This document shows positions 32,950 through 35,203 of a DNA stretch of 64,000 nt, piece after piece. The stretch comes from Clostridia bacterium (GTDB lineage: Bacteria > Bacillota > Clostridia > Oscillospirales > CAG-272): assembly GCA_017621415.1 (NCBI GenBank), contig JAGATD010000044.1:1-64000 (forward strand), given 5' to 3'. The notes under the pieces were generated by a model. The model saw only the letters and a program-made list of their open reading frames with translations, was not told the origin of the DNA and did no database searches. The translations under genes and the position numbers were made by a program. Positions within the stretch are counted from its first letter, which is position 1, and every line of letters begins with the position of its first letter.

Positions 32950-33876
32950 ATGACGGATACTTCCAAAGAAATATTTGAAAAACACCAAATTCGTAAAACG
33001 AAAAAGCAAAAAAATGCTTTTATTGATTATGTTGGAAAGCTTTCTGACCAGTGGGGCTACACTCATCATATTGAAAAAGGAATGCTTGGCGCGCGTAACA
33101 TAGTTGTAGGTGATATTAGCACCGCAAAGGTAATATACACAGCCCATTACGACACCTGCCCGGTCCTGCCTTTTCCCAATTTTATTACCCCAAAATGCCT
33201 CTCTCTTTATATTCTCTATCAGATAGCGCTTGTTGGAGCATTCTTTCTTGTCGCGGGGCTTCTCGGTGTCGCGGTAGGTGTTTTTACCGCACTTATCGGG
33301 GCTGAGCTAATCTATGTTTACGCAGTCGCCGAAGTGATTTATCTGCTTTTATTTTTAATGCTCTTTATGGGCCCCGCAAACAAGCATACAGCAAACGATA
33401 ACACCTCAGGTGTTACGCTTCTTATTGATATTATGAGTGATCTTCCATCGGAACAGCGTGAAAATGTTGCCTTTGTTTTCTTCGATCTTGAAGAGATGGG
33501 ACTTTTCGGCTCAGCCTCTTTTGCAAGCGTGCATAAGGCTGAAATGAAAAATCGCCTGCTGCTTAATTTTGATTGCGTATCAGATGGAGAAAACATAATC
33601 TTTGCCTTAAAAAAAGGAGCAAAGCCCTACCACCAAGCAATAGAATCTGCCTTTGAAGAAAAAGATAACTTCAAGGTAGAGGTTGCCGATAAGGGTATAT
33701 TTTATCCATCAGACCAGGCGAATTTTCCTTGTGGGGTTGGAGTGGCAGCGCTTCGCTCTACTAAAAACGGACTACTCTATATGAACAGAATACACACAAA
33801 AAGAGATGTTATTTATAAGGAAGAAAACATTGAATTTCTTAAAAACGGAGCGATTGAGCTTTTAAACAATATATAA
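32950..33876 (+). CDS. M28-family metallopeptidase with membrane insertion
   Basis: 308 residues with a di-zinc aminopeptidase core: the ligand set appears as His66/Asp68 (AHYDTC), Asp150 (NDNTSG), Glu181/182 (DLEEMG), Asp208 and His282 (RIHTK), so it looks catalytically competent. Between the first two ligand motifs, residues about 86-140 form two or three hydrophobic segments, an insertion not usual in M28 enzymes, which would tether the catalytic halves to the membrane. It lies 34 bases after the malic enzyme gene with no strong terminator between. Peptide substrate unknown. Confidence 0.82.
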   Translation: MTDTSKEIFEKHQIRKTKKQKNAFIDYVGKLSDQWGYTHHIEKGMLGARNIVVGDISTAKVIYTAHYDTCPVLPFPNFITPKCLSLYILYQIALVGAFFLVAGLLGVAVGVFTALIGAELIYVYAVAEVIYLLLFLMLFMGPANKHTANDNTSGVTLLIDIMSDLPSEQRENVAFVFFDLEEMGLFGSASFASVHKAEMKNRLLLNFDCVSDGENIIFALKKGAKPYHQAIESAFEEKDNFKVEVADKGIFYPSDQANFPCGVGVAALRSTKNGLLYMNRIHTKRDVIYKEENIEFLKNGAIELLNNI

Positions 33877-33887
33877 TTTAATAAACA

Positions 33888-33930
33888 AAGAGCCGAAATG
33901 GATCAAACTCCAAATCGACTCTTTTTTATT
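33888..33930 (+). terminator. Terminator after the M28 peptidase
   Basis: AAGAGCCGA (33888-33896) pairs with TCGACTCTT (33915-33923) apart from one mismatch, followed by TTTTATTTTT. Confidence 0.75.
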
Positions 33931-33951
33931 TTTAACAAACGGTAAATGCCT

Positions 33952-34235
33952 CGTTAGGCAAGAGAAAATAATCCGAACTAGCTCTAAAGCCTGAATTTTC
34001 AGTGCTTTCGGCACTTATCACTCTTGCAAAGTCCGCACTTGGCTGCGAGCTCCAAGCACCAAAATCATCTTAAAATTAAGGCTTTAGAGTTCTTCGAATT
34101 TGAAAGATAGCTGATTTTGCGTAAGACAAGGTGAAAATTTGAGATAATATGCGGATATTATAAGGATTTTTACCGAAGTATTACACGAAATCTGCATCTT
34201 TCAAACGGGTTCGGATTGTTCTCTCTTGCCTAACG
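33952..34235. mobile_element. MITE-like element with 27-bp terminal inverted repeats
   Basis: The ends 33952-33978 and 34209-34235 are inverted copies matching at 25 of 27 positions (CGTTAGGCAAGAGA...AATCCGAAC). Inside lie further nested inverted pairs: CTCTAAAGCCT near 33982 with AGGCTTTAGAG near 34080, and GAAAGAT near 34101 with ATCTTTC near 34195. At 284 bp it has no transposase. The right end overlaps the 3' end of the oxidoreductase gene and supplies its last 17 or so codons and stop. A target duplication is not clear. Confidence 0.72.
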
Positions 34236-35203
34236 CTAAGAACAACCTTGCCTACATTTTCACCTCGGTAAAGAACCTGCTGGGCTGCGTCTGCTTCTTC
34301 TATGGGGAATGTCTTATAAATTTTCAGTTTCATTTCCCCGCTTTCAAACTTACACCAGGTCTTTTCAACAAGCTCGGAAAGAAGCTGCCCCTTTTCTTCC
34401 GGTGTTTTGCTTCTGAGAGTGCTGCCGATTATGCGAATATTCTTTACAAATATGTTTCTGAAATCGACGGGAGAAATATCGCCTGCCAGGGTCGCAATCT
34501 GAATCCAACGGCAACCTCTCGCAACATATTTCAGACACCTGCCAAGCGCCTCTCCAGCAAGACAGTCAATTGCAATATCAACAGGTGTACCATTAGCCTC
34601 CTCTTCACGGAGAACCTCGGCAATATCCTCTTTTGTAGTGTCAACAACTCGGTCTGCCTTAAGATAAGCTACCTCTTTTACCTTTTCTTCGCCAAGAACA
34701 GTTGTAATTACCCTGAGTCCGAATGCCTTTGCCATAGGGATTACAGCGCTGGCAAGACCGCTGGCGCCCGCATTCATCAGAAGCGTTTCACCCGGCTTTG
34801 CGTCACCTACATAAAACAGATTCAAATATGCGGTCATATAAACCTCGGGGATAGCCGCTGCCTCTGCGAAGCTAAGTCCCTTTGGGATAGGCATAACCAT
34901 TTCGGCAGGAACACTTACATACTCGGCATATCCTCCGCCGCCAAGAAGCGCGCAGACCTTATCGCCTACCTTCCATCTTGTAACATCGGTAGCAACCTCC
35001 TTAATTACTCCCGCAACCTCAAGTCCGGGCCACTCGGGACATCCGGGAGGGGGTGGATAATTACCCTCTCTCTGCAAAAGGTCAGCGCGGTTTATTGCCG
35101 CGGCATAAACCTCAATTATAACCTCACCGTTTTTTAAAACAGGATTTTCAACATCGGTATAGCTTAAAGTGTGGTCATTTTTGTTAATTACTATTGCTTT
35201 CAT
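34181..35203 (-). CDS. NAD(P)H-quinone oxidoreductase (PIG3-type MDR), C-terminus from a MITE
   Basis: 340 residues of the medium-chain dehydrogenase/reductase superfamily, zinc-free quinone oxidoreductase branch: NRADLLQREGNYPPPPG (about 38-54), GLEVAGVIKEV, and AGASGLASAVIPMAKAFG in place of the GxGGVG dinucleotide loop. The natural protein should end near GKVVLSV; the following RQERTIRTRLKDADFV is encoded by the terminal repeat of the adjacent MITE-like element. The start overlaps the metallo-hydrolase stop by 4 bases. Last gene of a four-gene operon read from 37.4 kb; substrate unknown. Confidence 0.9.
   Translation of the reverse strand: MKAIVINKNDHTLSYTDVENPVLKNGEVIIEVYAAAINRADLLQREGNYPPPPGCPEWPGLEVAGVIKEVATDVTRWKVGDKVCALLGGGGYAEYVSVPAEMVMPIPKGLSFAEAAAIPEVYMTAYLNLFYVGDAKPGETLLMNAGASGLASAVIPMAKAFGLRVITTVLGEEKVKEVAYLKADRVVDTTKEDIAEVLREEEANGTPVDIAIDCLAGEALGRCLKYVARGCRWIQIATLAGDISPVDFRNIFVKNIRIIGSTLRSKTPEEKGQLLSELVEKTWCKFESGEMKLKIYKTFPIEEADAAQQVLYRGENVGKVVLSVRQERTIRTRLKDADFV

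Follow-up and report, generated by a model that had tools for sequence, protein, structure and literature searches.

The window, a stretch of 64,000 nucleotides from a Clostridia genome, carries on its reverse strand a gene for a PIG3-family NAD(P)H quinone oxidoreductase (positions 34181–35203). The protein scored 351.9 bits against the family model TIGR02824 (cut-off 296.8), with residues 1–324 aligned to positions 1–325 of the 325 in the model. The open reading frame ends GKVVLSV-RQERTIRTRLKDADFV-stop. Its last part, the tail RQERTIRTRLKDADFV together with a TAA stop codon (34181–34231, reverse strand), lies beyond the end of TIGR02824 and also beyond that of the best-matching solved homologue, 4dup, which stops at the same residue as the model match. 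The family sequence thus ends at LSV, as the initial annotation of this DNA had suggested. Between the oxidoreductase gene and a malic enzyme gene we also observed a peptidase-like gene with membrane segments (32950–33876, forward strand), which had no match in NCBIfam and is missing at the corresponding place in the congeneric genome G291.

The end of the oxidoreductase gene overlaps an inverted-repeat element, which the initial annotation placed at 33952–34235. The element is real: the arms at 33952–33989 and 34198–34235 are 82% complementary across 38 nt and enclose an interior of 208 nt. However, the outermost 3 bp on each side (CGT/ACG) belong to the target and not to the element. We therefore rejected the boundaries 33952/34235, as the ends shared by 22 copies at other sites and in other genomes exclude CGT/ACG. 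The true unit, TA-GGCAAG...CTTGCC-TA, spans 33955–34232 and comprises 274 bp between duplicated TA dinucleotides at 33955–33956 and 34231–34232 (278 bp with both TAs); the CGT and ACG outside the TAs form the palindrome of the target site, CGTTAACG. Within this unit, an outer stem is formed by a left terminal inverted repeat that begins GGCAAGAG (33957–33981, forward strand) and a right terminal inverted repeat that is translated within the oxidoreductase tail (34206–34230, reverse strand). These enclose the two arms of a conserved three-branched fold, arm 1 at 33982–34089 and arm 2 at 34099–34205 (both unstranded). As in a MITE, the element is short and non-coding, with imperfect terminal repeats of about 25 bp and no long open reading frame of its own, and it has a target-site duplication, with TA on both sides and a single TA at the empty site in G291. 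A scan of 33800–34300 for intrinsic terminators found none, and a known RNA family was ruled out at the site of the element by an Rfam search that returned no match.

When the flanks in the window are rejoined at one TA, the gene end reads LSVNEAFTVC-stop. We thus conclude that NEAFTVC was replaced by RQERTIRTRLKDADFV, that is, seven native residues were exchanged for 16 residues that the element supplies along with the TAA stop codon. The insertion point splits the codons GTT and AAC inside CGTTAACG, seven codons upstream of the old stop. A relic of the former gene end, comprising NEAFTVC and its TAA (33932–33955, reverse strand), is stranded past the element and is no longer translated with the gene. 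The corresponding locus in G291 contains no element. Its PIG3 protein is 94% identical to that of the window over residues 1–326, lacks RQERTIRTRLKDADFV and ends LTVKNKAFDLC-stop; this native tail, KNKAFDLC-stop, matches the relic, although it is one residue longer than the tail reconstructed for the window. At about 83% DNA identity, the G291 locus is not that of a near-isogenic empty strain. The empty allele and the relic bear out the proposal of the initial annotation that a MITE-like element rewrote the C-terminus and contributed both residues and stop codon. They also supply the element-free allele that it wished to see compared, and this homologue lacks the tail, whose presence there would have spoken against the proposal. 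A second pair of filled and empty sites was found at a 2-hydroxyacid dehydrogenase gene (L028 filled, L248 empty).

Family copies are frequently located at the ends of contigs in related metagenome assemblies, and an assembler might have joined the repeat to the gene end. Yet the NEAFTVC relic beyond the element aligns with the native tail of G291, so that both flanks belong to one locus, and the full form is single-copy in the genome of the window; an assembly artefact is almost certainly not the explanation. With the filled allele, the empty allele, the duplicated target and the stranded old tail all present, the locus documents, before and after the event, how a transposable element rewrote the end of a protein. 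An annotator unaware of the element would read the 16 residues as a lineage-specific tail of the protein.

Searching 395 genomes of the same family, we obtained matches to the element in 29. There are 41 distinct near-full copies from related gut Clostridia, mostly with unrelated flanks. The element thus forms a dispersed family at unrelated sites, which is the multicopy state that the initial annotation had allowed for. We aligned 22 near-full copies with unrelated flanks by their ends. They begin TAGGCAA and end TGCCTA, with the exceptions of L018, which has CA/TG, and L079, which begins TAAGC; most are 276–279 bp long. Pairs of terminal inverted repeats are present in many copies, and complete TA-to-TA short versions of 46, 74–77 and 123 bp exist. 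The genome of the window contains the full 278-bp form once, together with one complete 76-bp version (C41) and partial copies (C44 and C29). The repeat is thus not unique in its genome; the initial annotation would have taken a unique repeat as evidence against its reading.

Further forms and arrangements of the element were observed. The 76-bp class was found repeatedly across several genomes, with the copy in the genome of the window at L003:1501-1576 (G000:C41:3370-3445); it would be explained by loss of the sequence that separates the internal CACTCTTGC from the terminal CTCTTGCC. Longer forms of 328 and 457 bp are also present. At L026 and L082 (G218:C18), element copies lie head to tail with one common TA and reach the contig end. 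The locus L149 shares its left flank with L078/L186 and carries an element that is 99% identical to that of L186, next to an unrelated right flank, so that it looks as if it had been rearranged through recombination between element copies. A separate 32-bp palindrome, CCGTAAGGAAATTGAACTAATAAGTCTTACGG, with CTAG alongside, adjoins two partial element copies in the genome of the window, which holds two exact and two looser copies of it (G000:C44:27130-27159, C29:53097-53126, C44:32926 and C47:35436); the element copy L016 borders CCTTACGGC, which is similar to this palindrome. A single match resembling the terminal repeat in Salimicrobium (L175), from a pattern scan, was treated as chance. The element was not found in the phage and plasmid records searched. 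The sole match on an IMG/VR contig (L201, 2008–2285) lies at the edge of a prophage that has terminase and capsid-like genes; this insertion is the same as L078, and its neighbours are an ImmA-like gene on one side and, on the other, an XRE regulator gene ending in the element-made IGKRE.

Compared to shuffled sequences, the element is far more strongly folded (z = -10.4 as DNA and -10.5 as coding-strand RNA with flanks), and a hairpin is present at the old gene end in the fold predicted for this RNA. Across 21 aligned copies, 91 pairs make up the outer stem and the two arms. Here, 96.3% of the paired cells can pair compared to 86.7% in shuffles, and 48 pairs have changes on both sides compared to 23.4 in shuffles; the pairing signal is lost when the partners are slid. 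At the level of the alignment, this demonstrates that compensatory changes keep the three-branched fold. Three insertions are common to different species: L078/L186 and L020/L199 by both flanks, and L025/L027, where a further element copy has been added on the right, by the left flank. The elements in these insertions are 94–96% identical, compared to 80–89% for their flanks. Using a structure that came from the alignment with one member of each of the three insertions, we counted 13 substitutions at 546 paired positions (2.4%) and 27 at 287 unpaired positions (9.4%; p = 2e-5), so that paired positions changed about four times less often.

The conserved fold together with insertions common to different species would also be expected of a resident structured RNA or regulatory locus that is not mobile. 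Such a locus is contradicted by the empty allele in G291 and does not agree with the unrelated flanks, the TA duplication, the empty sites, the tandem and shortened versions, or the missing Rfam match, which makes it extremely improbable. The main effect of the insertion might instead be on the mRNA: the structure at the gene end could be cut, for instance by RNase III, or could protect the 3' end and thereby alter expression, and a cut within the coding part would yield an mRNA without a stop codon. The strong conserved fold, whose stem takes in the last codons, and the conservation of paired sites in place agree with such an effect, and the same idea has been put forward for the EnhC extension of Coxiella (PMC5896051). 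However, G-U and A-C departures occur in similar numbers in the outer stem and in arm 1 (11 and 9 each) and do not point to an RNA strand; arm 2 leans to G-U departures (75 versus 9), mostly from a few constant pairs. We thus regard a main effect on the mRNA as possible but unlikely. The substitution counts, together with the greater identity of the elements than of their flanks, would agree with a fold that host-level selection keeps in place for a function of the 3' end, which would make the element a portable structured end of a gene and more than a parasite. We regard this as rather unlikely. A similar deficit at paired sites could result from hairpin-templated correction or from recombination. 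If the conservation of the fold in place holds up, it becomes testable whether bacterial MITEs gain a function where they have landed.

Lastly, we traced the reading frames that enter the 41 distinct near-full copies from both sides. The outcome is set by which of the three frames is used. In the first frame, the TA of a stop codon and the G of the element restore a TAG, which leaves the protein as it was. Six genes with Pfam matches have this element-made ending: MurC, class II dehydroquinase, HPr kinase, KDPG aldolase, an HD-domain protein and a leucine-rich-repeat protein. Frames with the same ending at L158 and L096, which lack a Pfam assignment, are left out of this set. Because the TA is followed by G in the element, a TAA or TAG stop codon that is hit at its TA is restored as TAG, which is a simple rule for low harm at gene ends. 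Insertions into stop codons account for 7 of the 41 copies compared to about 7% expected (p ~0.02, one-sided), where the expectation is rough and comes from one host; a preference for stop codons is for this reason not claimed. The second frame gives GKRE, for instance in an XRE regulator that ends KSKR-IGKRE-stop (IY-stop at the empty site). The third frame, which is that of the oxidoreductase, gives RQE and further residues. It is also used in a 2-hydroxyacid dehydrogenase (NPEV-GRQKGVI-stop, compared to NPEVGYGK-stop in an element-free homologue) and in a membrane protein (ALS-GRQE-stop, compared to GK-stop at the empty site). Long frames entering the copies at L122, L025, L027 and L180 look antisense and were left out of the tail count.

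For a multicopy element, the initial annotation had predicted that the same peptide tail would appear on unrelated proteins. Element-encoded tails do occur on three further protein families, but neither the exact tail nor a common tag does. The tail might nevertheless be a functional mobile tag, such as a degradation or localisation signal, that selection has spread to unrelated proteins; tails on several unrelated proteins would suit this, as would a tail from one Coxiella MITE that ends two unrelated proteins (PMC5896051). The tails found here, however, differ in frame and length (16, 6, 4 and 5 residues) and vary with reading frame and point changes, the named genes most often gained just a TAG and no tail, and the exact 16-residue RQERTIRTRLKDADFV was found on no other gene among the copies and genomes examined. 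The only other copy of the peptide in the genome of the window, SQERTIRTRLKDADFV on C44, lies in a short intergenic frame. A mobile tag is thus weakly supported and, in our view, very improbable.

We instead favour, with a probability of about 0.93, that a non-autonomous MITE-like element inserted at a TA near the end of the PIG3 gene, duplicated this TA and replaced the tail. The sequence comparisons demonstrate the insertion, the TA duplication, the tail replacement, the multicopy family and the conserved fold. The element entered the TA between GTT and AAC, seven codons before the stop of the PIG3 gene, duplicated it and pushed the old gene end downstream. The new end comes from the element, with 16 codons that cover its right terminal repeat and extend into arm 2, followed by TAA. 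As the tail lies outside the conserved enzyme fold, which stops just ahead of the insertion point, the insertion was likely tolerated, and the effect of the tail may have been near-neutral. At gene ends the element is generally gentle, since the TA of a stop codon becomes TAG again and the other two frames usually add only a short tail (GKRE or RQE...).

The element was probably moved in trans by a transposase that targets TA. MITEs of the IS630/Tc1-mariner type (e.g. Stowaway) have structured inverted repeats and duplicate TA at the target, and the TA duplication observed here points to this group. The element resembles them in TA and inverted repeats; it differs in that the DDE_3 transposase is absent from every genome that bears the element. 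DDE_3 occurs in 14 other genomes of the family, without ends that match the element, and an IS630 transposase was thus rejected as its partner. An autonomous copy with the same ends was not found, and the fetched loci contain no pair of terminal inverted repeats more than 457 bp apart. An autonomous partner is the usual evidence of MITE origin, although it is not obligatory for every MITE, and one may exist in genomes outside those searched. With the mobilising transposase not found among the genomes with the element, the assignment to IS630/Tc1-mariner is left as a candidate.

MITE-written C-termini are already known. In Coxiella burnetii, the structured MITEs QMITE1 and QMITE2 lie at the 3' ends of functional genes, to which they contribute the last residues and the stop codon (PMC5896051). 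There, the tail AQTHRRQLKGAR ends both pntAA and CBU_2058, and other genes gain only a stop (PMC5896051). The present element is similar in its placement at gene ends and in supplying residues and stop, whereas the hosts are unrelated and QMITE2 has direct repeats of 7–9 bp instead of TA (PMC10969869). In enterobacteria, the small mobile repeats RU-1 (ERIC), RU-2 and RU-3 form in-frame C-terminal ends of conserved proteins (PMC2759123, PMC2229807), for instance RU-1 at an amidase whose normal stop was lost (PMC2759123). RU-1 has a contiguous open frame, whereas the frame used in the present element reaches a stop codon within about 16 codons; size and host differ as well. The palindromic mobile repeats of Rickettsia lie inside protein genes as in-frame inserts (reviewed in PMC2229807), whereas the present element ends the protein. 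We found no earlier description of this element family in the published literature searched. Thus, the general idea of the initial annotation is right but not new, and what our analysis adds to these known systems is a new MITE-like family and a direct comparison of a protein end before and after the insertion.
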